Below, piece by piece: positions 5,549 to 20,203 of a stretch of 41,307 nt of DNA. Position numbers and translations under genes: made by a program. The DNA lies in assembly GCA_025454975.1 (NCBI GenBank), contig JALONK010000038.1, positions 1 to 41,307 of the forward strand, in the 5' to 3' direction. Within the stretch, counting starts at the first letter, position 1. Every line of letters starts with the position of its first letter. Source of the stretch: Bacteroidia bacterium (GTDB lineage: Bacteria > Bacteroidota > Bacteroidia > UKL13-3). The notes under the pieces were generated by a model. That model was not told the DNA's origin. It made no database searches and saw nothing but the letters and a program-made list of their open reading frames with translations.

Positions 5549-6268
5549 TTAGGCCATAAAACGCTCCAACTTCATTTTGCGTTTCTCCCAATCTTTTAAA
5601 TGTTTTGTTTGTAATTCTATAAACTTTTGCGTGTGATCATGATATATTAAGTGACAAAGCTCGTGAATTATTACATACTCAATACAAAGTTTAGGAGCTT
5701 TAATTAATTCAGGATTTATGATAATTTTACCTTTAGCAGTGCAACTTCCCCAACGGGTAGGCATGCTACGAAATGAAAATTGAAATGAACTAACCTTCAA
5801 CTTATTCCTTTTTATGAAGTTATTGAATAAATTTTCTGCGAGAGGTTTAATTATCGCTTTTGCTTTTGATAAGTACCAATTATCAACCATCATTTTCACC
5901 TTCGATAAATCAGAGGTGTGAACTTCAATGAATTGGCCCTTAAGCTTTACAACATCGCTCTTAGGATTAAGTTTAGCCTTAATAATTTTTAGGCGATATT
6001 GACGACCTAAATACAAATGAGTTTCACCACTAACATATCTACGCTGAGGAGTAATTGGTTGAAAGGAAAGGAAAAGACTTTGTTGTTTAATAATCCAAGG
6101 TGCCTTTTTAATGATTTTATCCTTAATTATTTCAAGTTTTGCATGAGTTGGTGCTTTTACAAGAACTTCCAAATCAGGCGTAACTGTTATCCCAAGAGAT
6201 TTACGGTTTACGTACACCAAACGAAATTGAATAGTTCTACTTCCGTATTGTATATAATCAAAAATCAT
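5549..6268 (-). CDS. YgjP-type zinc metallopeptidase (DUF45/SprT-like), linked to hsdR
   Basis: A 239-residue cytosolic protein of the YgjP/DUF45 (M48-like) family. The conserved RSMPTRWGSC (about 167-176) is followed by the zinc site HELCH (202-206), with the third ligand probably His212 in YHDHTQKF. Such genes often sit beside type I restriction genes; here the start overlaps the end of hsdR by four bases (ATGA), so it is translationally coupled to it and is the last gene of the defence island. Its substrate is unknown; a role in regulating or processing the restriction subunit is only inference from position. Confidence 0.88.
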   Translation of the reverse strand: MIFDYIQYGSRTIQFRLVYVNRKSLGITVTPDLEVLVKAPTHAKLEIIKDKIIKKAPWIIKQQSLFLSFQPITPQRRYVSGETHLYLGRQYRLKIIKAKLNPKSDVVKLKGQFIEVHTSDLSKVKMMVDNWYLSKAKAIIKPLAENLFNNFIKRNKLKVSSFQFSFRSMPTRWGSCTAKGKIIINPELIKAPKLCIEYVIIHELCHLIYHDHTQKFIELQTKHLKDWEKRKMKLERFMA

Positions 6269-9200
6269 CTGTAGTGCCTACTTGCAACATCAATAAATTT
6301 TTCAGCTAAATCATCCATATCTGAGTATTCAAAATGAATTCCATACTTAGAACAAATTTCATCAATAATATAATCCCCAATTTCAATAATTAACTTTCCC
6401 GTAATATTTGATTTAGTGTACCAATCAATAACAAGCTTACTATCTTCGAAAACAATACTTTGAATTAATTGATCAATATGTTTGGCAATTTGTAAGGCTA
6501 CATCATTTCTAATTTTATTGTCAATTATTTTTTCGTCAAGAGCAAGTAATGATATTCCATAAATTGCTTTTGCTACTTCTAGTTTTTTGAGCTCTTCAGG
6601 CAAGTGGCTGTCATCACGATTAACTACAGCATTCATAATATTAATCACCTTATTTAAATACTGTAATTCATTGATTCGTTTGGCCTCATAATCAGCAATA
6701 GTCTCTTTTAAAAGCTGAGAAAACTTCTTATAAAACGCGGGATCTTCATCCATTCGTTCAGTAATATGTTTAGCTGTTCGACTTAAAATTTTATCAGCCT
6801 TTGCAGCTTTGCCAGTTGTATTTTCGACTTCCTGTTTAAATTTATCTTTATCAAAAATATTTACCAACTCAGTTATTTGTTTTATTTCTTCTGTGGTAAT
6901 ATGCGTGTCAATTAATTTTTGAATTTGTCCTTCATATTGTTTATAATCTATCTCATCGCTATATCTTTCAATAACTGCAATACGCAACTTTAAAAACATT
7001 GTTAAATCTTCTTTATATCTATTAATTAGCATTGCATCAACTTCTCTATGAAATTGAATTGATGACAAGGCCAATTTTAAGCCCTTCGCAAAAATTGCAA
7101 GTTTATCATAAAACTGCACCCTTAGTGCTTCATCTTTTAATAATTGCTGGTATGCCTCGGCATCTCGTTTGTTAGATATAATTTTAAATATATCCCATAA
7201 GTCAGCGTGTTTCTGTGATAATTGATTAACTACTGTGCTTATATCTGTAAGAGTACCTGCTAAATCCGTTTCATCAAAATCACTAAAAGAAGAATACATA
7301 TTTAAGGCACTATCTAAATTTTCAATTACCCCATAATAGTCAATAATATAACCATATTCTTTATCCGGATAAACTCTATTAACCCGAGCGATTGCTTGCA
7401 ACAGTTTATGCCCTTGTAAATTTCTTGTAAGGTATAATACAGTATTTTTAGGTTCATCAAATCCGGTAAGGAGTTTATCAACCACTATAATTATTTCAGG
7501 ATCTTTTTGATTTTTAAACCTATTAATTATATTCTTTTCATAGCTTTTAGCGTTGCCATGTTCATTAATCATTCGTTTCCAAAATTGATTTATTCTTTCA
7601 TTAGATTTTTCAAATACACTCTCCTCACCTTCTCGCTCATCAATGGATGAAATAATCACTTCACTACTTACCAATCCAATTTCATCTAAGTATTCTTTAT
7701 ATTTAATAGCACTAGTTTTTTTATCACAAACCAATTGTCCCTTAAATGGTGTTTTGCCTTGCCAGTTGTCGCGAAAATGGTAGCTTATATCCCATGCAAT
7801 CATCCTCATTTTTTGCTCTGCCGAATTTAAATGATCACTTCTAGTAAATTTTTTCTTGATATCTAACTTTTGATATTCAGTTAGAGGCTCAGCAACCATA
7901 TTAAAAAAAGTATCAATTGGTTTGGCATTCACTTCTTGTAATGCCAATCTTCCTTCATAAAGTAATGGAACAACAGCTTGATCTGAAACAGCTTGATCTA
8001 CTGTATATGTATCAATTATTCCACCAAATTTTTCAGCAGTACTTTTATCTTTCTTAAAAAGTGGTGTTCCTGTCATAGCGATGAAACATGCATTTGGCAA
8101 GGTCTTTTGCATATCAATATTAAATGTTCCGTATTGTGTTCGGTGACCCTCATCTACTAAAACAAATATATCATGACTTTCTAATGGCTGATTGATTTTT
8201 CTGACCGCCGCAACAAACTTGTTGATAATGGTTGTAACCACTGCATCGCTTTTACTTTCCAGCAATTCCACCAAACGTTGTCCGGTTGTTGCATTTTCTA
8301 CGAACTTGCCACATTTTCTAAACGTACTAGTAATCTGATTATCTAAATCAGTTCTATCTGTTACCAATACAATCTTAGGGTTGCGAATACTTTGTTCCAT
8401 AGCAATAGCTTGAGCTAACATCACCATAGTTAATGATTTTCCGCTTCCTTGTGTATGCCAAATTACGCCACCTTTTCTTCTACCCTGCTCAACATTTCTG
8501 ATGCGTTGCATTGATTTTTTAATAGCAAAAAATTGTTGGTAACGTGCTACCTTCTTTACACCGTTATCAAACAAAATGAAATTAAAAACAATATCCATCA
8601 ATCGTTGAGGACTACATAAGCCATACAAATAAATGTCTTGTTCCGTTGGTAAAATTTCTTCTTGCTCCAGTGCATCAAAGTATTGGCTTACATATTTGAA
8701 GCGGTCTGAAAATAATTGTTCTTTAACCAAGTTAGAAAGTGGAGTATTTTTAAGCTTTTTCAACTGTTCATTATACTCTTTTAACTTTTCGCTATCATCA
8801 AATTTCTCCTGCCACTTAGCCCAAAATTTTTCAGGTGTGGCGTTTGTAGCATAAGTGGCTTTTTGCGTAGCAATGCTCAAGACAAGTTGAGCATATACAT
8901 ACAAGCTAGGAATTCCGTCTTCTTGCTGATTGCGTACATGCTGACTGATAGCCTGTTTCAACGGCTCTTTCATATCAGGTCGTTTGCATTCTATTATACA
9001 AAGCGGAATACCATTTACAAATAAAACCAAATCAGGTCGGTAATGTTCTTTGCTATTGCTTCGCATTACATTGAACTCCTCGGTTACATGAAACACATTA
9101 TTGCTTATATTTTTCCAGTCAATGTACTGAAGTGTAAAACTCTTCTTGTCGCCATCCACACTTTGTTCCAAGGCTTGCCCTAAAGTAAGCAGGTTATATG

Positions 9201-9492
9201 CTTTCTCACAAGCTGCAATGTAGCCTTCATGCATAGGGAGGTTTTTCAAAGTAAGAATACCCCGTTCAATATTTTCATCTGTGAAAATACCGGTTTTAGT
9301 TGTACTTACTCTTATGCTGTTAATTTCCTTCAATTGTTTTCTCAAGATATCTTCCAACAACACATTGATTGATTTTCCACTTCGTTGCCTGTCGGCTTCT
9401 GCCGGGCTTAGATAGGTGTAGCCCAAATTTACTAACATTTGCAATGCAGGAATTTGACTGATATGGTCTTCTTTAAAACTTGGTATGTCCAT
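6265..9492 (-). CDS. hsdR: Type I restriction endonuclease subunit R
   Basis: A 1075-residue motor and nuclease subunit that cuts unmodified DNA after translocation. The N-terminal PD-(D/E)xK nuclease core is visible as YRPDLVLFVNGIPLCIIECK (Asp154, Glu168, Lys170). The SF2 helicase follows: Walker A HTQGSGKS (346-353), DEGH box (447-450), MTGTP (473-477), and motif VI region LLQAIARVNRVYP. A long helical C-terminal region presumably binds the methylase core. Length and motif order are normal, with no frame breaks. It is separated from the upstream DUF3800 gene by 194 bases, so it may have its own promoter, and from hsdM by about 8.6 kb of mainly CBASS-type genes, which is unusual. Confidence 0.97.
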   Translation of the reverse strand: MDIPSFKEDHISQIPALQMLVNLGYTYLSPAEADRQRSGKSINVLLEDILRKQLKEINSIRVSTTKTGIFTDENIERGILTLKNLPMHEGYIAACEKAYNLLTLGQALEQSVDGDKKSFTLQYIDWKNISNNVFHVTEEFNVMRSNSKEHYRPDLVLFVNGIPLCIIECKRPDMKEPLKQAISQHVRNQQEDGIPSLYVYAQLVLSIATQKATYATNATPEKFWAKWQEKFDDSEKLKEYNEQLKKLKNTPLSNLVKEQLFSDRFKYVSQYFDALEQEEILPTEQDIYLYGLCSPQRLMDIVFNFILFDNGVKKVARYQQFFAIKKSMQRIRNVEQGRRKGGVIWHTQGSGKSLTMVMLAQAIAMEQSIRNPKIVLVTDRTDLDNQITSTFRKCGKFVENATTGQRLVELLESKSDAVVTTIINKFVAAVRKINQPLESHDIFVLVDEGHRTQYGTFNIDMQKTLPNACFIAMTGTPLFKKDKSTAEKFGGIIDTYTVDQAVSDQAVVPLLYEGRLALQEVNAKPIDTFFNMVAEPLTEYQKLDIKKKFTRSDHLNSAEQKMRMIAWDISYHFRDNWQGKTPFKGQLVCDKKTSAIKYKEYLDEIGLVSSEVIISSIDEREGEESVFEKSNERINQFWKRMINEHGNAKSYEKNIINRFKNQKDPEIIIVVDKLLTGFDEPKNTVLYLTRNLQGHKLLQAIARVNRVYPDKEYGYIIDYYGVIENLDSALNMYSSFSDFDETDLAGTLTDISTVVNQLSQKHADLWDIFKIISNKRDAEAYQQLLKDEALRVQFYDKLAIFAKGLKLALSSIQFHREVDAMLINRYKEDLTMFLKLRIAVIERYSDEIDYKQYEGQIQKLIDTHITTEEIKQITELVNIFDKDKFKQEVENTTGKAAKADKILSRTAKHITERMDEDPAFYKKFSQLLKETIADYEAKRINELQYLNKVINIMNAVVNRDDSHLPEELKKLEVAKAIYGISLLALDEKIIDNKIRNDVALQIAKHIDQLIQSIVFEDSKLVIDWYTKSNITGKLIIEIGDYIIDEICSKYGIHFEYSDMDDLAEKFIDVASRHYR

Positions 9493-9686: not shown

Positions 9687-10421
9687 TTATGGATAAATCT
9701 TAAGGCCATAACGTTTCCCGTTTTTATTGTATATTTTTTGCTGAACAATATCGTATGCAGGATTTGCTCGATAAGGTTCTATTACATTTCTTGCTATTGG
9801 ATATGCAATTAAATCAGCCAATTGCAACCCATTGATGTTTTCTTTTTTATTTTTAAAATGAATGCTTAAACCATAGCTCTTTAGCCTCTGAGCAGATACA
9901 TAACTTGTACCTCTGGCCAGCAGTCGTTGAAAATGTTCGTCAAGTTTTTTGTCTTCTTTTTTTCCTCTTTTTTCTATTACAATAAATAGTTTTTTGCTGT
10001 TATCGTTTACGTCATCAAGGTAAAATATTGCCCTTTCGATAATGAATGACAAGGCAAGTTCATACACATCGTTTGATAGTTTTCCAAACTTCCTGATGTA
10101 ATTGTCCTTTTGTATGGCTGATGCAATAATGGTGTAATTATGATTAGCTATTGCCGCATTTAAATGCTCATAAAACCACTTCTTTTTCTCGAGATCAAAT
10201 AAGATTGAAAACTCCTTTTCGCATTTTCTGATATCCCGACTGTGGAATATAACCGACTTATTTCCCCACAAATTGAGTTTAATGGTATTAAATGAGCCTG
10301 TAATTTTTTCATACTCTTGTTCAGCTATCAGTGCTCCACAAAGCAAAAACACGGGAAAGTCAGGGTTTAATGTAGTTAAACCATGATCGCCAGTTTCGTC
10401 TATGAACAAGTAGTAATTCAT
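9687..10421 (-). CDS. DUF3800-domain protein (putative RNase H-like fold)
   Basis: A 244-residue protein from the ATG at 10421; a TTG five codons further upstream would overlap the preceding gene. The N-terminus MNYYLFIDETGDHG carries the DUF3800 hallmark acidic motif (Asp8, Glu9, Asp12). A second acidic site appears near the C-terminus in NGLQLADLIAYPIARNV. DUF3800 proteins are common in phages and defence islands and are thought to adopt a ribonuclease H-like nuclease fold, but no activity is established that I can cite. It follows the metallophosphoesterase by four bases, so it belongs to the same transcript. Role in this island is unknown. Confidence 0.82.
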   Translation of the reverse strand: MNYYLFIDETGDHGLTTLNPDFPVFLLCGALIAEQEYEKITGSFNTIKLNLWGNKSVIFHSRDIRKCEKEFSILFDLEKKKWFYEHLNAAIANHNYTIIASAIQKDNYIRKFGKLSNDVYELALSFIIERAIFYLDDVNDNSKKLFIVIEKRGKKEDKKLDEHFQRLLARGTSYVSAQRLKSYGLSIHFKNKKENINGLQLADLIAYPIARNVIEPYRANPAYDIVQQKIYNKNGKRYGLKIYP

Positions 10422-10425
10422 TAGT

Positions 10426-11190
10426 TTATAAATCAATTACTTTATTCGTTTCAAAAAGCGAATGTTCGTTTCGTTGCACATAGCCAAACTGGTTGGTTAT
10501 AAGCTTGGTGTTGCCAATTGTGAACTCAGGGGTATTGGTATGATGATGTCCATAACACCAATAGTTAATGTTTGAATGTTCAATTACATCGTATAACTCC
10601 ACTGCAAAAGCTTCGTTTAAAACATCACCTTTGTATTGCTCGGGGTAGTTTAAAAAAGTTGGGCAGTGGTGGGTAAAAACAGCCATGTGTTCTTCTATGT
10701 TTTTATTTAGTTCGTATTTAATAAACGCTAAACTTTGTGCATGCAGTTGGTTGTATAACTCAGCTGTAAAACGATAGCTTTTGTGCTTGATTAAATGAAA
10801 ATCATTCAGGCTGCGTTCAATCTGCCATTGGCAGCCGGTACTGATGTGACTCCACAGGGTTGAGAAAATCAACTTCACACCTTCATGTACCACAGAAGTA
10901 TTGTTTACCAAAAACACATTGCTGCGAATGGCCTCGTGCACTAAACCGCTTTTTTCGGCTATATCAAAATGGTAATACTCATGATTACCCGGAAGCCAAT
11001 AAGTAGTTTTAAAGTTATCTGATATATAACTAAAAAAATCTCGGTGTTTATCAATTACAGAAAAGGGCACAATATCGCCTGCCAACACCAATACATCAGC
11101 GGTTGGCTGCAAAGGGTGCTGTTTTAAAAATTCCTTGTTAGCGGGAAATTCTAAATGCAAGTCGGAGGCGTATTGGAGTTTGAGTGGCAT
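10426..11190 (-). CDS. Calcineurin-like metallophosphoesterase in defence island
   Basis: A 254-residue cytosolic phosphoesterase. The five metal-binding blocks are readable: LQYASDLHLEF (about residues 5-15), VLVLAGDIVPF, WLPGNHEYYHF, AVFTHHCPT and CYGHHHTN. The substrate cannot be read from sequence: such enzymes cleave cyclic nucleotides, nucleoside polyphosphates, phosphoproteins or nucleic acid ends. Its ATG overlaps the stop of the GGDEF gene by one base (TAATG), a strong coupling signal. A role in removing a nucleotide second messenger made by a neighbour would fit, but that is inference. Confidence 0.88.
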   Translation of the reverse strand: MPLKLQYASDLHLEFPANKEFLKQHPLQPTADVLVLAGDIVPFSVIDKHRDFFSYISDNFKTTYWLPGNHEYYHFDIAEKSGLVHEAIRSNVFLVNNTSVVHEGVKLIFSTLWSHISTGCQWQIERSLNDFHLIKHKSYRFTAELYNQLHAQSLAFIKYELNKNIEEHMAVFTHHCPTFLNYPEQYKGDVLNEAFAVELYDVIEHSNINYWCYGHHHTNTPEFTIGNTKLITNQFGYVQRNEHSLFETNKVIDL

Positions 11191-11951
11191 TAAACAATTG
11201 ATTTCGTGTTATTCTTACCTGAAATTTTCTTTGCTTCGTTTAGAGCTTCTGTTACTCTATCGGTAAAAGAAGTATAATCGTCATTCTTTTTGAGCTCAGT
11301 TACTCCGCAGCAAACTGTTAATTTGTGAATTTCGCCATCAATAGAAAAAAGGTTTTTTTGAATCAATTTCCTTTTTCTTTCTGCTGCTTGCATTGCTTGA
11401 CTTAACGTTGTATCATAAGCAACAACTAAAAATTCATCCCCTCTATTGAAGTATCTAAACGTCTCGTCTGTGACTCTTTTATCATTGCTTAATAGTTCGC
11501 CTAGGTTCTTCAATATTTGGTCTGCCTTTTTAAATCCATAAAGTGTGTTGAAGCTTTTGAAATCATCAATATCAATTATTATCAAGGAAAGAGATTCTGA
11601 TCTATTCTTGGACTGTTGTAATTTTAGTTTTAAATACTCATTTAGTGCTTTATGATTTTTTAGTCCTGTAAGTTCATCTGTGTGGTTGTCATTTAAAACT
11701 AAACGTATTTTTTTTCTAAAATACCTACTAACGAAAAAAGTTGTAATAGTAATAAGGACAATTGCAGAAATGATAATTGCATATGTAGTAATATAGTGTT
11801 GAGTTAAAAACCATTTTTTTACATATGGAATCCATTTTGTTGGAATAAGCAGTATTAATGAAATTATGAGCCATTTAAGTAAGTCATAAATACCCTTTGA
11901 TAAGGCATCATTCTTAAATTTCTTAACGGATTCTCTAATGTAATTTACCAT
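11190..11951 (-). CDS. Membrane-anchored GGDEF-domain protein
   Basis: A 253-residue protein with two hydrophobic helices (about 25-42 and 53-75) and then a GGDEF nucleotidyl-cyclase domain. The domain shows DELTGLKNH (92-100), the metal-binding LIIIDIDDFKSFN (Asp127) and the active-site loop RGDEF (170-174), a tolerated variant of GGDEF. I see no canonical RxxD inhibitory site five residues ahead of it; the nearest RVTD is seven away. There is no EAL, PAS or CHASE domain. The family makes cyclic di-GMP, but placement ten bases after the broken CBASS synthase and coupled to a phosphoesterase suggests a specialised signal role (inference). GGDEF genes are otherwise sparse in many Bacteroidota. 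Confidence 0.85.
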   Translation of the reverse strand: MVNYIRESVKKFKNDALSKGIYDLLKWLIISLILLIPTKWIPYVKKWFLTQHYITTYAIIISAIVLITITTFFVSRYFRKKIRLVLNDNHTDELTGLKNHKALNEYLKLKLQQSKNRSESLSLIIIDIDDFKSFNTLYGFKKADQILKNLGELLSNDKRVTDETFRYFNRGDEFLVVAYDTTLSQAMQAAERKRKLIQKNLFSIDGEIHKLTVCCGVTELKKNDDYTSFTDRVTEALNEAKKISGKNNTKSIV

Positions 11952-11961
11952 TTCTTTTTAT

Positions 11962-12748
11962 TTAAATTACCGGGAACTTCTCCCCAAACTGCTGTTTCCA
12001 AATGTTTAGTGCTTTGGTTTGACTGTCTTGCTGTAAGGCCTGTTCCGCTTGTTTTATTAATTCATTAAATGCTTCTTTGAAATTGCTTTTTTGATTGCTG
12101 TCTAATTTTGCCAGAAAATCATCACCTGGTGTTGATGGGTTTATGCTAACTGCTTCCCAACCAAATGAATTCTTGATGGCTTTTGCAGTTTCATAAAAAG
12201 CAATATCATCTCGTGTATTTGATTTATAATAAGTAGCTACCCAAACACTGAAAGCAATGCCACTTGGCATTTTTCTGCTTCTCTGGTTTGCCCATGTTTT
12301 GAAGTATTTTACCAAGCGTAGCATCTGACCATTTTTATCTTTCTCTTTACGTTGTTTTTCAAACCAATCGCATAATTCTTTAGGATCGCTTTCTTGCCAC
12401 CCTCTTTTAGTAGCTAAGTATGGATGTTTTAGTTCTTGTGTAAAAAAATACATTTTTAACAGCATCTACAACATAGCCTTTCAGTGTCTCAGGTTGAACA
12501 CTTGGTCTAAATAAAAAGTATACACCCAAATCAACGTCATAACTACCGTCCCTTTTCACAACCATGGTTTTCATTTTGTATGAACCTTGTATGTAAAATT
12601 TTGGTACGGGAACTTTCGTTTTATTTTTGAAATACTCCACAATTGTTTTTTGTAAAGCTTTACGAGATGCAACAAGTTTATCCTTTCTACCTTTAGTAAG
12701 AGATATAGCTTGTTCGAACTTTAAAAATTGGTTATGTGTATTTGCCAT
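11962..12748 (-). pseudogene. CD-NTase (CBASS cyclic-oligonucleotide synthase) broken by frame shift and probable internal deletion
   Basis: Two reading frames make up one gene. From the ATG at 12748 the first frame encodes 113 residues with the nucleotidyltransferase signature: FYIQGSYKMKT (Gly55-Ser56) and DGSYDVDLGVYF (Asp71, Asp73). It stops at 12407. The next frame continues from about 12450 to 11962 with HPYLATKRGWQESDPKELCDWF and LRLVKYFKTW, the C-terminal half of the same family. At the junction the frame shifts by one base near seven T residues (A7 on the plus strand at 12442-12448). The segment with the third catalytic acid (YHIDLP-like; YHMDILP in CD-NTase 1 nearby) is missing, and the combined length of about 262 codons is shorter than usual. 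A deletion of some 35-45 codons plus a frame offset explains this better than a single-base slip. It follows capV by 25 bases. Confidence 0.78.
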
Positions 12749-12773
12749 TTCGTTATATTTTATTTCGTCATCG

Positions 12774-13847
12774 CTAAACAGTTCTTTGAGAATCAGTCCA
12801 CCGACTGCCACTCCCAAAATTCTCAATAATATATGTTGCATTGTTTTGAAATTCTATGGTTGCCTTTTCTGCAAGTTTTTTTAGTTTCCCTTTGTCGATT
12901 TCATCCATTTCAATAGGACAACTTTCATCTAATTGGGTGTCAATTCTGATATAGTTAAAATTATCTGGCTCTCTTTTATCTATACCATTTTTTAAGATGC
13001 TAATTAAGTTCTGTGCTTGTTGCGTTTGCCCTTGCATAAAAACTTCAATTAACCGTTTCTTCCCATCCTCAAGCATCCAGTAATTAATGCCATATTTAAC
13101 CCGATGGTTGTTTTTCTTGTCAATACCCGCATCGCAGAAGCGTTGATGGCCTGTCCCAATAGATAACACCGAAAGGTCTTTAAGCTCAAGATTGAAAGCT
13201 TTTTGGGCTTCAATAATTCCGTTAAGCGTAGGATTGTTAGCAAAAACGCCTCCGTCCACTTTGTTCTGAAATGGTTTTTCTAAACCATTCAAATCAATGT
13301 ATGAAGCCGAGTATGGGTCAAAGTAAGTTGGAGCTGCCGAAGTTGCTAAAGCTGCCTGATATGCTGGAATGTGAAAGTCTCTGACAAATGCAGGATGGTA
13401 ATTACTTTTTAGAACTGAAGGCCTGCCTTCCATTAAATCGTAAATCGGAATTGCAACATGTGTTTTGCAATGCGTTAACCTTGGGTCTTCGCCACCTTCT
13501 CCAGAGTGGAAAGCCTTGAATTTGTCTCTGATTAATTTTTCTAAAGCTTCACGATTGTGCGCAGCAAATTTGAATCTTCTGAGAAAGCTCTTTTTGTTTC
13601 CAAAAATGGTAGCAGCATTGTTCAAATAGAGTTCATAAATCTCTTTGGCAGGAATACCTAAAGAGAGTGCAATTGCCATAATCCCCCCGGTAGAAGTGCC
13701 ACATATTAAATCAAAGTTTTGGTACACCTGCCATTTTTCTTCACCTTTAGCTTTAAGTTCCGCTTCATAGTTGGCTAATAGCATTGCAGGAAAAACACCT
13801 CTGATACCTCCTCCGTCTATGGATAATATTTTAAATTTTTCAACCAT
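12774..13847 (-). CDS. capV: CBASS patatin-like phospholipase effector
   Basis: A 357-residue patatin-family lipase. The oxyanion loop DGGGIRG (11-17), nucleophile elbow GTSTGG (50-55, Ser52) and DGG of the catalytic dyad (Asp198) in KVDGGVFANNPTLNGI are all intact. In CBASS systems CapV is activated by a cyclic dinucleotide and degrades membrane phospholipids, killing the infected cell. The CBASS assignment rests on context: it starts eight bases inside the end of cap5 and is followed by a CD-NTase gene. That CD-NTase is broken, so the partner synthase may now be the intact one at 16607-17836. A housekeeping patatin lipase is a less likely alternative. Confidence 0.88.
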   Translation of the reverse strand: MVEKFKILSIDGGGIRGVFPAMLLANYEAELKAKGEEKWQVYQNFDLICGTSTGGIMAIALSLGIPAKEIYELYLNNAATIFGNKKSFLRRFKFAAHNREALEKLIRDKFKAFHSGEGGEDPRLTHCKTHVAIPIYDLMEGRPSVLKSNYHPAFVRDFHIPAYQAALATSAAPTYFDPYSASYIDLNGLEKPFQNKVDGGVFANNPTLNGIIEAQKAFNLELKDLSVLSIGTGHQRFCDAGIDKKNNHRVKYGINYWMLEDGKKRLIEVFMQGQTQQAQNLISILKNGIDKREPDNFNYIRIDTQLDESCPIEMDEIDKGKLKKLAEKATIEFQNNATYIIENFGSGSRWTDSQRTV

Positions 13848-14970
13848 TTTTGATCTCTATTGCTTTGAAAAAACCACTATTGACTGTGTTCTCATCATAG
13901 ATGTGCAAAGGCATATCTGCTTTTGGCATCCAAACCCTGCCAAATTCAATTGCTGTAGCAATTGGCATGGCTGGAAAAACATGCAGTGGGATGTGAGCAT
14001 CGCATTTTGATTTAATACAATTCAGCAACTTTCTCATTTCCATACTAAAATCCTGAAGCTGTTTTTTAGACTTTAAAAAGTCATTGAACGGTGCATCAAT
14101 AGTTAAGGTATAAATTGAACAATCATTTCCTAGCACTGAAGTTATTCGGTCATTATTAATTGTTGCACTTAACGAGATATTCAAAGCAACTGTTGGTAGA
14201 GTTTCTGAAGGCTCAATAACCTTATAAAGCGTTTCAGTTGCATCATCATTCAAATTCCACGTCTTTGGGGCTCTTACTGGTTGGTGTATTTCTGCGTGCT
14301 GAATATCATTTATAAGTGTGCCAAGTTTAATCAACAAGGGCATTGGAGCAAATGCAAATATGGAAAGATGATTGATTTCACCTTTTCTGAACTTTGGTCT
14401 TAATTGTTCATTAAACTGACTCTCAAGATTCTCCAATTCTGTTGCCCAAAAGCTTAAGTCTTTGTCACGCTGAGGGCTATTGCTCAAACTTAAATCTATT
14501 GCTTGTGACTGTGCCGGATAATGTGAAGGCAATAGGAATTCACGAACAGATTCATAGGAGATAACTGGAGTATGAACGCCAATATTTGCCTTATAGGTAA
14601 CAATGTGGCTATGCATGTTTGGATTGATTGAAGCTACTTTTTCAATTCTATCTTCATGTTCCTTTTTCATTACTAACAGTAATGATTCGGGATGACCTGC
14701 AACATCCTTTTTATCAATTAGTCTATGATGTTCATCACATAGAAGCATAAGATTAGAAATGTCGTCTTTTAATAATTCAGATCTAACCGAATCTCCTCTA
14801 GGTCCACCAGGCACGTCTGCAACAATATGAGCTATATAAGCTTGGTTAAATTCACTCTTTGTTAGCGCATCCACGAATAAAGGCTTGTTACATCCTCTAT
14901 ATTGGCACCTTCCGGCAGCTTTACCCCATAAAATGTATTTATTTGCTGGTGAAATATTTGTTACACTCAT
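13840..14970 (-). CDS. cap5: HNH-SAVED CBASS effector nuclease
   Basis: A 376-residue protein with an N-terminal HNH nuclease and a C-terminal SAVED sensor. The HNH part shows CQYRGC (Cys22, Cys27), AHIVAD (His48), GPRGD, NLMLLCDEHHRLID (Asn73, Cys78, His81/82). The SAVED-like half (about 180-376) has INHLSIFAFAPMPLLIKLG and the conserved tail HVFPAMPIATAIEFGRVWMP. In characterised Cap5 proteins, binding of a cyclic nucleotide to SAVED drives oligomerisation and indiscriminate DNA cleavage. Both halves look intact. The start overlaps the full-length hsdS stop by four bases (ATGA), and the gene is followed by capV, so two different effectors are adjacent. The domain assignment is from motif recognition; the ligand is not known. 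Confidence 0.9.
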   Translation of the reverse strand: MSVTNISPANKYILWGKAAGRCQYRGCNKPLFVDALTKSEFNQAYIAHIVADVPGGPRGDSVRSELLKDDISNLMLLCDEHHRLIDKKDVAGHPESLLLVMKKEHEDRIEKVASINPNMHSHIVTYKANIGVHTPVISYESVREFLLPSHYPAQSQAIDLSLSNSPQRDKDLSFWATELENLESQFNEQLRPKFRKGEINHLSIFAFAPMPLLIKLGTLINDIQHAEIHQPVRAPKTWNLNDDATETLYKVIEPSETLPTVALNISLSATINNDRITSVLGNDCSIYTLTIDAPFNDFLKSKKQLQDFSMEMRKLLNCIKSKCDAHIPLHVFPAMPIATAIEFGRVWMPKADMPLHIYDENTVNSGFFKAIEIKNG

Positions 14971-16166
14971 TTGATTCTGATTTTTCCGGTTAATAATTTC
15001 TGCATCAAGCCTTTTTTCTTTTCACGAAGTTTTTCAGCCTTTAATTTCAAAAGAGATATTTCTTTTTCTGCCGCTTGCAGTACTTGGGCAATGGCGGTTT
15101 GTTCCTCTAAAGACGGTATTTTAAAGCTCCATTCTTCTAAAGTTTCTCTATCTAGATTTCTTCTAACGATACTTGCTCCAATCACTGATGAACCTATCAA
15201 ACATTGAAGCATAATTTCACTTCGCACAAAAGACTTCATGAATTCAGCTGAAATCTTTGGATTGCAAATTTCAAAAACCTTATATGCAGGAGAAACCATA
15301 CCTATTTCATTTTGACTAAGTACATCGATTGAACCCATCCAGAAGTTCAATCCACTCATTACCATATCGCCTTTTCTTACCACTAAATATGGAGATGTAT
15401 CTTCGCTTGCTATTTCCTTATTGAAATACTCTGCCTGAGAGACTATACCATCTTTAGTAACAGATAATACCAAGTGTTTATCATCCCCAGCTTTTTGTTT
15501 GACTTGAGTGTATATTTCTTTAAAGCGGACAAATTTCCACTTCCCACTAAATCCCTTCAACCTCTTCTTCCCCGTGAGCAATTGCTGCATGAGCCATTTT
15601 TTGCGGAGTTCTTTTTGGACAATGAGTTTTTCTGTGGTGTTGATGGCTGTATCTGCCGTGCTTAGCACATGGGCTATGGCTTTTTGTTCGTGGAGTGGAG
15701 GAATTGTGATTTTATATTTTGAAATTTGTTCCCCAGTTAACTGTGGAATACCTCCACTTTCCTGATGAATTTGTAAAACTCCATTTACAAATTCTGTTAT
15801 ATAATGTGCAATAACATTTTCTTTTGGGAATAAAACCAAAAGTCTTCCAATGGCCCCATATTTTCCATTTCTAGTAAATGCTGTTCCTAAACCTGCACCT
15901 CGACCAACAATAGTCGTACTTTCCCCTGAAAATTCCTCAATATTGTAATAGCCATATAAACCTTCATTTTCGACAGTATTGGAATATACAGGTACTTGAT
16001 ATTCTTCACATTTACTACTAGAAAAATTATTTTCTTTCAAATCTCTGCCAACATAAATATTACAAACATCAGCAATAAATTTTAGCTCCCAACCTGCTGG
16101 AACTTTGGAGTCATAATTTGACATAGAGTCTTCGTTAACTTTATTTTTTGCTGCTACTTGCTTCAT
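14967..16166 (-). CDS. hsdS: Type I restriction-modification specificity subunit S, two target-recognition domains
   Basis: A 399-residue S subunit with two tandem target-recognition domains and two conserved helical spacers. The first spacer contains IPPLHEQKAIAHVLSTAD and ends KWLMQQLLTGKKRL (to about residue 203); the second contains IPSLEEQTAIAQVLQAAE and ends GLMQKLLTGKIRIK. This gives the normal two-half DNA recognition for the HsdM/HsdR complex. The ATG at 16166 lies 26 bases inside the end of the E2-like gene; an internal ATG at 16124 (MSNYDSKVPAGW) is an equally natural start. Unusually, hsdS is separated from hsdM by three genes, two of them CBASS genes. Confidence 0.93.
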   Translation of the reverse strand: MKQVAAKNKVNEDSMSNYDSKVPAGWELKFIADVCNIYVGRDLKENNFSSSKCEEYQVPVYSNTVENEGLYGYYNIEEFSGESTTIVGRGAGLGTAFTRNGKYGAIGRLLVLFPKENVIAHYITEFVNGVLQIHQESGGIPQLTGEQISKYKITIPPLHEQKAIAHVLSTADTAINTTEKLIVQKELRKKWLMQQLLTGKKRLKGFSGKWKFVRFKEIYTQVKQKAGDDKHLVLSVTKDGIVSQAEYFNKEIASEDTSPYLVVRKGDMVMSGLNFWMGSIDVLSQNEIGMVSPAYKVFEICNPKISAEFMKSFVRSEIMLQCLIGSSVIGASIVRRNLDRETLEEWSFKIPSLEEQTAIAQVLQAAEKEISLLKLKAEKLREKKKGLMQKLLTGKIRIK

Positions 16167-16626
16167 CTATAGTTTCTTTTTGTTTGTTGGCTTGTTTTTC
16201 GGCTTCTGTTTCGTGATTTATTCCACCACCGTGCCAAGTACCTGTGCAAACCCATAACTCGTAATGGCAAAGCCATTCGCAAGCCCAGGGAATTATTGTT
16301 CTGGTATAAAGCATTCCAACATTCCATTCAATTCTGTTGGGATAGTACAAGCATAGTCTCTGCTGCGGTGTGGAATAAACGTGTGGCAAGTGTTTATTAC
16401 CTGCTGCTAATGGCAAGGGCTTAGGGTCAATTACATATACTTTTACACCCTTGTTTCTAATGTACTCTAATTTCAATGTGTAAACACTGCTTAATGGTGA
16501 TGGTGTTACCGAACACGTCCAAGTGAGTGATTCCTCACGGAAGCGTTTGGTTACTCCATCGGGAAACATATTTTTCAATGTTCCCTCTTGCACAATCAAT
16601 GATATTCTATTGTTCTTCCTTACCAT
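16141..16626 (-). CDS. E2-like ubiquitin-conjugating-type protein of type II-short CBASS
   Basis: A 161-residue protein from the ATG at 16626 (the frame is open to 16689, but that overlaps the CD-NTase coding end). The sequence LTWTCSVTPSPLSSVYTLKL, then LPHVYSTPQQRLCLYYPN, then TIIPWACEWLCHYELWVCTG and TWHGGGIN is the pattern I associate with the stand-alone E2-like proteins next to CD-NTases. Cys92 in LCLYYP is the candidate catalytic cysteine. In related systems the E1-E2 protein Cap2 conjugates the C-terminus of the CD-NTase to cell targets and so primes it; short systems have only the E2. No E1 or Cap3 peptidase is present here. The last 20 residues are charged and Lys-rich. It overlaps the CD-NTase end by 20 bases. 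Confidence 0.8.
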   Translation of the reverse strand: MVRKNNRISLIVQEGTLKNMFPDGVTKRFREESLTWTCSVTPSPLSSVYTLKLEYIRNKGVKVYVIDPKPLPLAAGNKHLPHVYSTPQQRLCLYYPNRIEWNVGMLYTRTIIPWACEWLCHYELWVCTGTWHGGGINHETEAEKQANKQKETIDEASSSKK

Positions 16627-17836
16627 AAAAATTGTGATTCTTAACAGTAGTTCCGGCAGTTCCAAGCATTCCGGTTTTTGCAGCCACATTCAAACTTCCT
16701 CCTTCACGTTGTATTCGCAAGTTTTCACCGTAATTGCTGAACGCTTTTGTAACTGCATCTTTACCAAATGGCTTTTGCATGGATTCATTGATAAATTGTA
16801 AGCCCTTTCCGCTTTGTCCAATTATGTTGTTCAAGTCTTTCTTTACTTCATTTAACCAATGGTAAAAATTCTTCTCACGTTGCGGGTACTCTTGCCATTT
16901 ATCAGCAAAATTTTCTTCATCATTAACAGGGTTTGAAATCCACTTTATCCTTTTACCATGTTCATCTGACCAGCGTTCTTCAATGTAGTTTTCCATGGTG
17001 TTCACGACATTAATCAACGCCTCTATAATGTCTGTTTCCTTGTTATAGGCTTTTGAGGTAAGGGTTGTGATGATAATAGATATAGGCTTGTGCTCATTTC
17101 CATTAAATAGCATATCTCTATGCCTTTTCAGAATTTGAACTACTCTTTGTAGGGGAAGTTTTTCCTTTTTGAATTTGGGCACAGGGGCAATTGATTCGTT
17201 CAGAGAAAATGCTTTCTTGAAATCAAGCGTTGCTTGCTGAAAAAACCAACGACCATAACCGAAAGGGTTACTCTTTAGCCATTCTAAATGATTGGTTTCC
17301 CAGTCGTAGTTGTCTGTTTGATTATCGGTTATGCGAATACCAAGTTTCTCGATATCCTTAAGTTCAGAATCTGAAAAGGCCTTTTCCAGAATCATTCTGT
17401 AGCCTTTGTCAACGATGGAAGGAAGAATATCCATATGATAATTTGCATCATCAGAATAAACCAAAGTCCAGCATCGCCTTCCTTCTTCATCAAGCATCTC
17501 TTTATAGGTTCCGTGTGCTTTTAAACGGTCACCTACTTTATGTTTTAAATCTTCCTGTGTCCAGTCAGGATTTTTGCCTTTCAATTGGCAAACAAGATCA
17601 ATATCCAAATCGTCTTTATCATTGATTGGCTTAACCATTGTACCCAACATGAATGAGCCTTGTGGCAAAATTTCAGGCGAATAAGGTGCAAGTGTGGAAT
17701 CCTCTTTTGCAAGCCAATTTCCAACAGCTTCATAGCTTTTTACGGCTGCTTCGTATTGTGTTTCTGAAATGTCAAGTGTCTTTCCTAACTCTTCCAGAAT
17801 ATCGCTGAATTGTTGTTTTTGTTCTTTTGTAAGCAT
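16607..17836 (-). CDS. CD-NTase (CBASS cyclic-oligonucleotide synthase), intact
   Basis: A 409-residue cGAS/DncV-like nucleotidyltransferase, the sensor and signal-maker of CBASS anti-phage defence. The catalytic set is complete: LPQGSFMLGT (Gly60-Ser61), DDLDIDLV (Asp78, Asp80) and NYHMDILP (Asp136). A helical C-terminal half follows with KLPLQRVVQILKRHRD. The C-terminus reads GTTVKNHNFYGKEEQ: a His-x-Phe-x-Gly-like end that in type II systems is the conjugation site, but with four extra residues after the glycine. It starts two bases after the 81-aa gene and overlaps the E2-like gene, the type II-short order. Clade (CdnD/CdnG-like) and product nucleotide cannot be fixed by eye. Confidence 0.92.
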   Translation of the reverse strand: MLTKEQKQQFSDILEELGKTLDISETQYEAAVKSYEAVGNWLAKEDSTLAPYSPEILPQGSFMLGTMVKPINDKDDLDIDLVCQLKGKNPDWTQEDLKHKVGDRLKAHGTYKEMLDEEGRRCWTLVYSDDANYHMDILPSIVDKGYRMILEKAFSDSELKDIEKLGIRITDNQTDNYDWETNHLEWLKSNPFGYGRWFFQQATLDFKKAFSLNESIAPVPKFKKEKLPLQRVVQILKRHRDMLFNGNEHKPISIIITTLTSKAYNKETDIIEALINVVNTMENYIEERWSDEHGKRIKWISNPVNDEENFADKWQEYPQREKNFYHWLNEVKKDLNNIIGQSGKGLQFINESMQKPFGKDAVTKAFSNYGENLRIQREGGSLNVAAKTGMLGTAGTTVKNHNFYGKEEQ

Positions 17837-17838
17837 AA

Positions 17839-18084
17839 TTATTGGGTTTGAATAGAGTAGCAGTTAATAGCTTTCTTGTTTTTATCATAAACTGTTAGGA
17901 TTTGACAAGTTTCATCAACATCGAGTTCATAAGAAAAATCTGGGCTTACGATTCCATGCAGAAGTGAATCAAGTTTTACATTTCGTCTCTCAGTTGTGAA
18001 CTCAATTTCAGACGGATTAATAACTGACCATCCCTTTTCCAAAAGATATTTGTCCAACTCTATTATGTCATCGAATAGTTTCAT
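17839..18084 (-). CDS. Small unknown protein between hsdM and CD-NTase
   Basis: An 81-residue soluble, acidic protein (starts MKLFDDIIELDKYLLEKGWS). I do not recognise a family. Predicted alternation of short helix and beta segments (KLDSLLHGIVSP, CQILTVYDKNKKAINCYSI) suggests a compact alpha/beta domain. Its ATG overlaps the hsdM stop by four bases (ATGA) and its stop is two bases from the CD-NTase ATG, so it is tightly locked into the operon at the junction of the restriction and CBASS parts. That position makes it a candidate accessory, inhibitor or antitoxin-like protein, but nothing in the sequence proves this. Confidence 0.75.
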   Translation of the reverse strand: MKLFDDIIELDKYLLEKGWSVINPSEIEFTTERRNVKLDSLLHGIVSPDFSYELDVDETCQILTVYDKNKKAINCYSIQTQ

Positions 18085-19640
18085 TTCATTAATTGTTTAA
18101 GGTAATTATCCATTTCAGCCTGCACCGTTTTTAGTTCGCCTTCCAATTGCTCAATCTCTTTTTGCACGGCAGAAATATCCACTTCGGCTTCTTCTTCAAA
18201 GGTGTCTATATAGCGGGGTATGTTCAGGTTGTAATCGTTTTCCTGTATTTCTTTGGGAGTTGCTACATAGCTGTATTTATCTTCCACCACACCTGGCTTT
18301 AATTTACCATTGGCAAATTGGTTGTAGGTGTTTACTATATCGTTAATGTCTTGCTCGCGTAACTTGTTTTGGTTTTTAGCACTCTCGTAACGTTTGCTTG
18401 CATCAATAAACAATACATTATTGCTGCTCTTTTGCTTGTTAAAAACCAATATAGCTGCCGGTATACCTGTACCAAAAAACAAGTTGGCAGGTAAACCAAT
18501 TACGGCTTCTAACAAATTTTCTTCAATGGTTTTTTGCCTAATTTTTCCTTCGCTGCTGCCTCTAAACAACACTCCATGCGGCACTACTACACCAGCTTTG
18601 CCGTGTTCGTTTAAGGTTTCAATCATGTGGGTAATAAATGCCCAGTCGCCTTTGCTTTTTGGTGGTACACCGCGCCAAAAACGGTTGTATTTATCACTCT
18701 CAGGGTCGTAGCTCACTGTAGTTTTATCACCATCTTTGTCTTCTACCTTGCCCCATTTATCTAAAGAAAAAGGTGGGTTTGCCACAACAGTATCAAACTT
18801 CATTAAGGCATCACCTTCTTTTAATTTAGGGTTACGAATGGTATCGCCCCAACGGATAGTGGCATTATCAAATCCATGCAAAAACATGTTCATTACAGCT
18901 AATGCCCATGTACTGCCGTTGGCTTCTTGCCCGTAAAGTGAAAAGTTATCGGAGCCTACTTCTTGTCCGGCTTTAATAAGCAACGAACCCGAACCACAAG
19001 TAGGGTCGCAAATACGAGAACCAGGTTTGCTTTTGGTAAGTTTAGCCAATAATGTAGAAACCTCTGCAGGTGTAAAAAATTCGCCCGCTTTTTTGCCCGC
19101 ATCACTTGCAAAGTTGGCAATCAAAAACTCGTATGCACCACCTATAATATCGGTACCACCTAAATGCGAAGGACGCAGGTTCAATTTATCTGAACTAAAG
19201 TCAATTAAAAGCGTTTTTAAACGTTGGTTTTTATCTTTAGGTTCGCCTAGCAAGCTGCTGTTAAAACTTATATTTTTAAAAATTCCGGATCCATCTTCAC
19301 TGTATAATTTATCGCGGTTGGCTTCTTCCAAATCGGCAAAAGCAATATCAATTAACTCACCAATGTTACTCTCATTGCGGTGTTCGTATAAATAATTAAA
19401 GTGGCTGTGTTCGGGCACGGTAAAGCGTTCGTATTGCATCGAGCGTTTGGCACGGGTTAAATCGCCATCGTATTTTTTTAAATATGTATCTAACGTATCA
19501 TCATGCACATCACTTAAATATTTTAAGAACAGCATGGTTAGCACATAATCTTTATAAACACTTGGATCAATACTTCCCCTAAAAGTATCGCAAGCTTTCC
19601 ATACAGCATCGTTTATGTCTTTCTGTGTTATTTTAGCCAT
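18081..19640 (-). CDS. hsdM: Type I restriction-modification DNA methyltransferase subunit M
   Basis: A 519-residue N6-adenine methyltransferase. The N-terminal helical domain (ITQKDINDAVWKACDTFRGS) is followed by the SAM-binding motif RICDPTCGSGSLLIKAG (DPTCGSG at 212-218) and the catalytic motif VVANPPFSLDKWGK (NPPF at 288-291). The C-terminus ends in a coiled coil (VQKEIEQLEGELKTVQAEMD) used for contact with HsdS. Length and motifs are normal. A half-size S-like gene lies five bases upstream, and the full S lies three genes downstream. It is the core enzyme that protects self DNA for the HsdR at 6265-9492. Confidence 0.96.
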   Translation of the reverse strand: MAKITQKDINDAVWKACDTFRGSIDPSVYKDYVLTMLFLKYLSDVHDDTLDTYLKKYDGDLTRAKRSMQYERFTVPEHSHFNYLYEHRNESNIGELIDIAFADLEEANRDKLYSEDGSGIFKNISFNSSLLGEPKDKNQRLKTLLIDFSSDKLNLRPSHLGGTDIIGGAYEFLIANFASDAGKKAGEFFTPAEVSTLLAKLTKSKPGSRICDPTCGSGSLLIKAGQEVGSDNFSLYGQEANGSTWALAVMNMFLHGFDNATIRWGDTIRNPKLKEGDALMKFDTVVANPPFSLDKWGKVEDKDGDKTTVSYDPESDKYNRFWRGVPPKSKGDWAFITHMIETLNEHGKAGVVVPHGVLFRGSSEGKIRQKTIEENLLEAVIGLPANLFFGTGIPAAILVFNKQKSSNNVLFIDASKRYESAKNQNKLREQDINDIVNTYNQFANGKLKPGVVEDKYSYVATPKEIQENDYNLNIPRYIDTFEEEAEVDISAVQKEIEQLEGELKTVQAEMDNYLKQLMK

Positions 19641-19645
19641 GATAT

Positions 19646-20203
19646 TTATTTTATTGCGTTGATGATTTCTTGTTGAATTTGTTTTTCACGAAGCATTTCA
19701 ATTTTCTGCTTCAAAGATTTTTCTTTCTTGCGGAGTTTTGAAATTTCTACAATGACTTGTTGCGTTTTTATATCAGGAATCTGTATCTGTAAGTTTTCAA
19801 GCACCTGCTTTGAAATAGATGGAAGTGAACTTCCAATTGCTTGGGTTTTTAAAATTGATTGTATTAAATTACTATTTAGAAACCATACTATATATTCAGG
19901 TATCACTTGATCGGTTGTAAGTTTAACTACAAAAAAAGAAGTTGATGCAACAGCCGGTTCATTATGACTTTCATATAATGCTGCAAAATTTTTAAACCCT
20001 TTAGCAGCAAAAATAACATCCCCCGGTTTCAACAAATGTCGTTCTGAAATATCCTTACTACTAATTTCGCCATGTAACTTTTGTTGCAACACACCATTTT
20101 CATCGAAATGTTTAACTTGCAGATAAACTATATCGCCTGCACCTAGCGGCTTAGCGAAAACGCCTGTATGTATATTGGTAATATTTTTTATGATTTGTTT
20201 CAA
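19646..20203 (-). CDS. Half-length HsdS-like protein (single target-recognition domain)
   Basis: A 185-residue protein with one type I S target-recognition domain and one helical spacer. The TRD-type segments are LKPGDVIFAAKGFKNFAAL, STSFFVVKL and VIPEYIVWFLNSNLIQS; the end of the domain shows SSLPSISKQVLENLQIQIPD, and a coiled coil (ISKLRKKEKSLKQKIEMLRE) closes the protein. Full S subunits are about twice as long. It is the first gene of the island, ahead of hsdM by five bases. It could act as a homodimeric half-S subunit giving a second specificity, or be a remnant of an older S gene. The reading frame is clean and starts from an ATG. Confidence 0.82.
   Translation of the reverse strand: MKQIIKNITNIHTGVFAKPLGAGDIVYLQVKHFDENGVLQQKLHGEISSKDISERHLLKPGDVIFAAKGFKNFAALYESHNEPAVASTSFFVVKLTTDQVIPEYIVWFLNSNLIQSILKTQAIGSSLPSISKQVLENLQIQIPDIKTQQVIVEISKLRKKEKSLKQKIEMLREKQIQQEIINAIK

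Follow-up and report, generated by a model that had tools for sequence, protein, structure and literature searches.

The present analysis concerns a window of 41,307 nucleotides from a Bacteroidia bacterium (the whole stretch examined; assembly GCA_025454975.1, contig JALONK010000038.1, positions 1 to 41,307), in which a gene for a membrane protein with a GGDEF domain, P0001, lies among the genes of a cyclic oligonucleotide-based antiphage signalling system (CBASS). Comparison of this gene with its relatives suggests that it is an optional accessory of CBASS with a patatin phospholipase effector in Bacteroidota, and that its product makes a guanine cyclic dinucleotide dedicated to that system; a probability of roughly 0.58 is given to this reading. 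The defence role was inferred from gene neighbourhood. The gene can be summarized as follows.

11190..11951, minus strand: 2TM-GGDEF gene (two transmembrane helices), protein P0001, 253 amino acids, RGDEF motif, RxxD at 159-162

The linkage to CBASS was evaluated by tblastn (threshold 1e-4) with ten CBASS query proteins against member, control and other loci. Matches to both a patatin and a cGAS/DncV-like nucleotidyltransferase (CD-NTase) could be observed in all nine loci that hold a complete member of the P0001 family (the window, L002, L003, L004, L049, L050, L051, L063 and L064), and the patatin was the partner common to all of them. This neighbourhood recurs in four arrangements, namely an island of CBASS genes within type I restriction (hsd) genes, a Runella plasmid, L051 and L064, of which three or four are independent. 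None of the 20 ordinary GGDEF loci of the phylum matched any CBASS query. These controls, consisting of 12-17 kb around 20 ordinary GGDEF genes taken from loci matched in the phylum search, were unmatched for defence islands; several loci on short contigs and others lower in the match list were passed over, and a few of those used reach a contig end on one side. The chance of the 9-versus-0 split is one in 10,015,005, and counting the six islands once gives 4/4 versus 0/20 (one in 10,626), but both figures overstate the linkage because the controls were unmatched for defence islands and because L051 and L064 may share an ancestor. Seven further loci with weaker or partial relatives (from genomes G1429, G1181, G762, G545, G1669, G1175 and G888) were queried in the same way. 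Four of the seven contigs are shorter than 9 kb, and the single locus with a match was G1181, through its own TIR-STING gene.

The named relatives of the window genome and its type IX secretion domains point to the Bacteroidota. This genome (98% complete) contained P0001 as the sole GGDEF protein found and no EAL domain. No partners of an ordinary cyclic di-GMP (c-di-GMP) network, either another GGDEF or an EAL protein, were thus detected there, PilZ and HD-GYP lying outside the search. Among 57 relatives of the window genome the GGDEF count was zero (1/58 with the window genome itself). The genomes of L002 and L003, together with G898, G1042 and G1226, also hold one GGDEF each, the CBASS-linked one. 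The sole-GGDEF count covers these six member genomes, with G1268, G1270 and Runella outside it, and the EAL search covers the window genome. Within these genomes there is no second GGDEF protein with which the enzyme linked to CBASS could work. The position of the sole c-di-GMP-type enzyme gene in CBASS, beside a membrane-destroying phospholipase, suggests that GGDEF signalling is also part of immunity. The earlier note on this DNA had proposed a second nucleotide-signal generator used in defence and had suggested a search for such genes beside CBASS in other genomes. The nine of nine members at patatin CBASS, the sole GGDEF and the lack of an EAL match agree with this proposal, and the family was not found mainly outside defence loci. 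An involvement of the adjoining phosphoesterase was not supported, as described below.

The open reading frame (ORF) of P0001 was intact, with an ATG start and zero internal stop codons. It matched PF00990 (GGDEF) at 1.3e-29 over residues 90-243 (103.5 bits against a cut-off of 23.8) and TIGR00254 at 3e-29 (101.8 bits against 37.4), while the Pfam scan gave no other domain above cut-off. Two hydrophobic segments peaked at residues 20-38 and 56-74; since the helices are only 17 residues apart, there is no space for an extracytoplasmic sensor domain. The active-site motif RGDEF occupies residues 170-174. The description of a two-helix RGDEF protein with no recognisable sensor domain in the earlier note was thereby confirmed. 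Its statement that a canonical inhibitory site is lacking held only in part. RxxD is the usual inhibitory-site signature of GGDEF proteins, and RVTD at 159-162 of P0001 fits it; the spacing, on the other hand, is unusual. RxxD was present in all nine complete members, 7 residues ahead of the motif, compared with 5 residues in 11/11 ordinary GGDEF ORFs extracted (11 of the 29 loci L006-L034 yielded one by plus-strand pick), because two residues are inserted directly before [RK]GDEF in the family.

Alignment of seven members and two cousins revealed invariant residues D127, D129, K132, N135, D144, R159, D162 and G171-F174, and the remaining two members carry the same residues as read from the nine-member alignment. 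The metal-binding Asp pair and the base-binding Asn and Asp of a diguanylate cyclase are therefore in place, and so is the loop save the first Gly of GGDEF, which is Arg or Lys in the members and Met or Asn in the two cousins. By equivalence with PleD, we take the invariant family residues to be the metal, substrate and guanine contacts together with the inhibitory site. Hypr GGDEF enzymes make cyclic GMP-AMP (cGAMP) and have the guanine-reading Asp replaced by Ser; no such replacement was seen here, D144 being invariant. Mean pairwise identity among the nine members was 0.63 for the GGDEF domain, 0.58 for the 27-residue N-terminus and 0.32-0.34 for the two helices. The ratio of nonsynonymous to synonymous substitution rates (dN/dS) of the GGDEF gene was 0.08-0.16 in the 5/10 pairs with computable dS, and the gene is under purifying selection. 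Structure prediction from three sequences gave a mean pLDDT of 55.7, too low for a fold search. The PADLOC 2023 models gave no match to P0001 at E 0.1. Pfam includes an mCpol model, yet neither Pfam nor PADLOC gave an mCpol match to P0001 at E 0.1; the palm of Cas10-Cmr2 was matched at 0.028, below cut-off.

The members were gathered by several searches, the genome sets of which overlap, so that their sizes are not additive. A peptide scan of genome contigs with P0001 gave L002 (89%) and L003 (82%). Plasmid records matched P0001 in 508 cases, 507 of them under 80% coverage; the one full-length match was on a plasmid of Runella slithyformis typed as conjugative. There the GGDEF gene stands third, behind genes for an XRE/IrrE regulator and for a protein of 169 aa, and the genes CapV - CD-NTase - E2 - second CD-NTase are transcribed divergently from it. 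Family alignments were then used to search whole genomes, which contributed G898, G1042 and G1226 from one set (396 genomes) and G1268, G1270 and the truncated G1429 from another (324 genomes). A GGDEF-type match at 1e-10 was present in 118/395 genomes of the phylum, where the window's own gene scored 8.6e-149 and the next best match 3.2e-24, covering residues 66-251 only. At 1e-22 the 64 genomes of the order contained no match other than the window gene itself. In another order (393 genomes) the matches were G479, from which L003 comes, and two non-members, and in a further family (338 genomes) full-length members were absent. Viral contigs yielded no relative in scans with P0001 and with A1. 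The Runella homologue (P0014) matched 40 phage records, none at 80%, the best 10 of the 40 covering 62-65%.

In a phylogenetic tree the members formed one clade (support 97/95) apart from 16 other GGDEF sequences; a long-branch warning was raised for this tree, and L015 was left out as the same gene as L072. The hsd-CBASS island type comprises six loci (the window, L002, L003, L049, L050 and L063), in which the GGDEF gene begins 9-11 bp after the second CD-NTase gene. The arrangement is CD-NTase - patatin - GGDEF in L051 and GGDEF - patatin - CD-NTase in L064; their CD-NTases belong to a different PADLOC group (PDLC00788/00801), and the window E2 had no tblastn match in either locus. The two CD-NTases are 33% identical and the two GGDEF proteins are sisters in the tree. 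A further sequence, L065 9792-10433 (G1429), is a 3'-truncated member of the family and was counted apart from the nine.

Several other candidates were rejected as members. G545 gave a weaker match, a CBS-GGDEF protein with GGEEF. G762 (L042 9638-10231) encodes an NGDEF protein with one helix among genes that look by eye to be of starch-degradation type; it was not counted, and is a possible distant cousin. G1669, G1175 (GGDEL) and G888 (GGEEF) lie on contigs of 3.5-8.5 kb with no CBASS match.

In the window the CBASS locus is nested among the genes of a type I restriction operon. Read along the minus strand, the order is a partial specificity-type ORF, hsdM-like, small ORF, CD-NTase 1, E2, hsdS, HNH-SAVED, CapV patatin, broken CD-NTase 2, GGDEF, phosphoesterase, DUF3800, hsdR-like and YgjP-like metallopeptidase. 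The features are as follows.

19646-20203, minus strand: partial specificity-type ORF (PF01420)
18081..19640, minus strand: hsdM, type I restriction methylase-like, named from sequence and position
16607..17836, minus strand: CD-NTase 1 (PADLOC PDLC00780), intact, within the hsd operon
16141..16689, minus strand: E2-like CBASS ancillary protein (PADLOC)
14967..16166, minus strand: hsdS, type I restriction specificity subunit; partial match to one model at 5.9e-08, below cut-off
13840..14970, minus strand: HNH-SAVED endonuclease, CBASS effector (domain and PADLOC match)
12774..13847, minus strand: CapV-type patatin phospholipase (NCBIfam CBASS cGAMP-activated phospholipase, 6.7e-74)
11962..12841, minus strand: CD-NTase 2, DncV-like, broken (PADLOC PDLC00774); two ORFs, 12407-12841 and 11962-12465
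10426..11190, minus strand: calcineurin-like phosphoesterase, variable cargo (PF00149, 1e-12); its first base is the last base of the GGDEF gene
9687..10436, minus strand: DUF3800 protein, variable cargo (domain match)
6265..9492, minus strand: hsdR, type I restriction translocase/nuclease-like, named from sequence

A CD-NTase and an effector are thus present in one locus, with CD-NTase 1 intact and CapV, HNH-SAVED and E2 alongside it. The identity of hsdS also follows from its position between hsdM and hsdR, and hsdR homologues occupy the equivalent position in other hsd-CBASS islands. Compared with its intact homologue in L002, CD-NTase 2 has lost 80 bp in a single deletion that also shifts the frame, and the remnant ends 10 bp upstream of the GGDEF gene; this remnant and the phosphoesterase coupled through the shared base 11190 are both as the earlier note had described them. 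Uninterrupted CD-NTase 2 ORFs stand at the equivalent place in L002, L003, G898, G1042 and G1268. L002 and L003 are islands of the same kind, with CD-NTase 2 of 319 and 318 aa, respectively, ending 10 bp before GGDEF. Read from its first ATG, CD-NTase 2 overlaps the patatin 3' end by 68 bp (12774-12841); an overlap of the same type was seen in L002, L003 and L050 and none in L049, so that translation may in fact begin at an ATG further in.

Comparison of the six hsd islands also bears on which neighbours are constant. The gene following GGDEF, named by eye from the sequences, is Fic-like in L002, DUF3800-like in L003 and AlbA-like in L063, and hsdR follows directly in L049 and L050. The phosphoesterase was accordingly rejected as a dedicated degrading enzyme, being next to GGDEF in none of these other five islands. 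HNH-SAVED was likewise rejected as the GGDEF partner, as it had no tblastn match in the eight other member loci. A CD-NTase and E2 pair lies between hsdM and hsdS in 6/6 islands, and interchangeable genes lie between hsdS and hsdR. L002, L049, L050 and L063 each have two CD-NTases and one GGDEF for a single recognised effector, the patatin. In L003 the place taken by HNH-SAVED in the window, with hsdS on one side and CapV on the other, holds a 178-aa ORF with a hydrophobic start (7121-7657), possibly another effector. The dN/dS of CapV was 0.04-0.08 in 6/10 pairs. Between the window and L002, dS was 0.43 for GGDEF, 0.37 for CapV and 0.85 for part of CD-NTase 2, in contrast to saturation in hsdR; therefore the stretch from CapV to GGDEF appears to have been exchanged between islands apart from the restriction genes.

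A more distant relative was found in G1181 (L052 9242-10944), where a one-helix GGDEF protein with MGDEF, 29% identical to P0001, is encoded 71 bp downstream of a full-length TIR-STING gene on the same strand. The TIR-STING protein matched PF20300 at 1.6e-14, PF10137 at 6.4e-14 and the Cap12 structure 9lmq at 2.9e-26. No SMODS match was found in the 5.8-Mb assembly at E 0.01, with a model that did match the weak CD-NTase of G1226 (0.0015), and no second GGDEF was found in this genome. Plasmid searches gave 3 records matching the TIR part only of this TIR-STING, and no STING name among the best 8 of 2840 matches to the G1181 GGDEF. The next gene upstream of TIR-STING looks, from its sequence, to be of the RelA/SpoT kind.

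The proposed explanation is as follows. P0001 would be a membrane-anchored GGDEF synthase, probably active, and its product would most likely be 3',3'-c-di-GMP, the default guess because the guanine-reading Asn and Asp are invariant. The dinucleotide would be dedicated to the neighbouring CBASS, and above all to its phospholipase effector, since the cyclase is probably competent, is accompanied by no further GGDEF and stands constantly beside the patatin; the patatin is the likelier target because it is kept in every locus, whereas the group of the CD-NTase varies. The RxxD site would provide product feedback, and the two-helix unit would hold the cyclase at the membrane that the phospholipase attacks. 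The sign of the action is a guess, with a guard or brake slightly favoured over direct activation. As a brake, a steady dinucleotide level would restrain the effector until a phage sponge or nuclease strips the dinucleotides. The preference stems from Panoptes, which consists of an OptS mCpol synthase and an OptE two-transmembrane effector and is suggested as a guardian of CBASS (PMC12657218); P0001 occurs in the same setting and is built along similar lines around another enzyme. A wider idea, put forward tentatively and judged less likely than not, is that CBASS-type immunity has taken in GGDEF enzymes as dedicated signal makers: they would guard or brake patatin CBASS at the membrane, as a one-polypeptide counterpart of Panoptes based on GGDEF, and would replace the CD-NTase for TIR-STING in the cousin.

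Two special forms of the preferred explanation differ in what the dinucleotide does. P0001 might be a self-contained guard of the Panoptes kind, in which c-di-GMP at RxxD keeps the two-helix half closed, and the helices open and damage the membrane once a phage sponge or nuclease has stripped the dinucleotides. The patatin and E2 of the window locus, the RxxD site of all nine members and the lack of another GGDEF in the member genomes searched fit such a guard. It is nevertheless somewhat unlikely, as Pfam assigns P0001 to GGDEF with no mCpol match up to E 0.1, the sole pointer to mCpol is the sub-threshold Cas10 palm match, the helices are the least conserved part and offer no obvious specific pore, and the neighbourhood of GGDEF showed no membrane effector of its own that would bind a dinucleotide. 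The dinucleotide, c-di-GMP or cGAMP, might instead switch the patatin on as a back-up to the CD-NTase, in which case the window locus, with CD-NTase 2 broken, would depend on GGDEF. The intact CapV and GGDEF ORFs on either side of the broken gene are consistent with this. So is the cousin GGDEF paired with TIR-STING where no SMODS CD-NTase was detected, bacterial STING being activated by c-di-GMP (PMC8748872), and a paper on a CapV variant speculated that cGAMP made by GGDEF enzymes, or the binding of c-di-GMP, might play a part for it (PMC9095652). On the other hand, the effector could be supplied by CD-NTase 1, which the window has in intact form; permanent activity of an activator would be toxic, and there is no evident sensor to control it; and Asp144 is kept where Hypr enzymes change it. 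Back-up activation is judged to be improbable to a similar degree as the self-contained guard.

Outside the preferred explanation, P0001 could be an ordinary diguanylate cyclase carried as defence-island cargo, its c-di-GMP serving adhesion or motility of the host or of a mobile element. GGDEF genes are indeed common on plasmids and in the phylum (the 508 records and 118/395 genomes given above), islands hold other variable cargo, the residues for c-di-GMP synthesis and feedback are present, and single-GGDEF genomes with no CBASS linkage exist (G545, G762 and G888). Cargo would, however, have no network to join, because the six member genomes searched gave no further GGDEF and the window genome gave no EAL match; it would also have to keep the same partner across four arrangements and appear where 0/57 relatives have a GGDEF, and we consider it unlikely. 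Alternatively the protein could be inactive as a synthase and act as a dinucleotide sensor, or as a scaffold holding CBASS proteins at the membrane. The Arg or Lys at the first motif position, the two-residue insertion directly before it and the conserved 27-residue N-terminus, which resembles a binding surface, point in this direction. Degenerate GGDEF sensors normally lose catalytic and binding residues, whereas here no member has lost the two acidic residues of GDEF, either of the Asp residues that bind metal, or the Asn and Asp that bind the base, and the member genomes searched have no other GGDEF source of c-di-GMP, which makes a sensor or scaffold quite improbable.

Several points weigh against a dedicated CBASS accessory. 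A single homologous island type accounts for six of the nine loci, and L051 and L064 may descend from one ancestor, which brings the independent events to three or four; defence genes cluster, and position alone is no proof of function. The gene is rare and dispensable: 91 plasmid records have CapV at >=80% query coverage (at least 80%) and P0001 reaches 80% only in Runella, and a Fibrella CapV plasmid had no family GGDEF in the stretch examined. The G1429 locus has no CBASS match nearby and its genome no SMODS match; it may be what is left after loss of a locus. Nor does having a single GGDEF set the members apart, because the non-member genomes G545, G762 and G888 also have exactly one. The replaced first glycine and the insertion of two residues could lower activity, and CapV is named for cGAMP, not c-di-GMP. 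Between the window and G1042, dN was 0.30 for GGDEF and 0.08 for CapV, so that the CapV-GGDEF stretch is not one indivisible block. As for the G1181 cousin, it is a long-branch relative and a single case, and the guanine-reading Arg described in PMC8748872 is apparently missing in its STING (phmmer alignments by eye). The support for the accessory role comes from sequence and neighbourhood.

GGDEF proteins are regarded as the foundation of ordinary bacterial lifestyle signalling, which is held separate from CBASS, a system defined by CD-NTases; the family would break this separation, if the reading is true, and would be a new accessory class for CBASS. The guard principle of Panoptes would then be testable with another enzyme fold. 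The question of whether c-di-GMP gates or restrains the CapV phospholipase is made testable. The pair of TIR-STING and GGDEF would suggest that STING can be served without a CD-NTase, and c-di-GMP would be an immune signal in bacteria with no other GGDEF enzyme if the recruitment of GGDEF enzymes is true. A literature search by titles and abstract openings revealed no description of a GGDEF gene within a CBASS operon, and the terms GGDEF, diguanylate, c-di-GMP and CapV are absent from PMC12657230. The new element would be a CBASS accessory synthase of predicted GGDEF fold.

Among known systems, Panoptes is similar in having a small palm-domain dinucleotide synthase, in the involvement of membrane helices, in its rarity and in often adjoining CBASS with a patatin effector and a ubiquitin-like system (PMC12657218). 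It differs in that the enzyme here has a true GGDEF domain (Pfam 1.3e-29) and not mCpol, and in that the helices lie in the same chain, a separate dinucleotide-gated two-transmembrane effector not being seen; a guard function here would be a conjecture. PleD, DgcZ and Hypr GGDEF enzymes share the same catalytic and guanine-binding residues and the RxxD site, whereas the family has [RK]GDEF, the two-residue insertion, RxxD seven instead of five residues before the motif, a two-helix anchor without a sensor, and the CBASS context. TIR-STING (Cap12) CBASS resembles the G1181 locus, which has a full-length Cap12-like TIR-STING with GGDEF just downstream; in this one example GGDEF stands where a CD-NTase is expected, and the guanine-reading Arg of STING appears to be missing. 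The CapV-DncV CBASS, with a patatin effector and cGAMP as its signal, has its operon of CapV plus DncV-like CD-NTase in common with the present locus; the window adds E2 and SAVED genes and has the GGDEF synthase as an extra.

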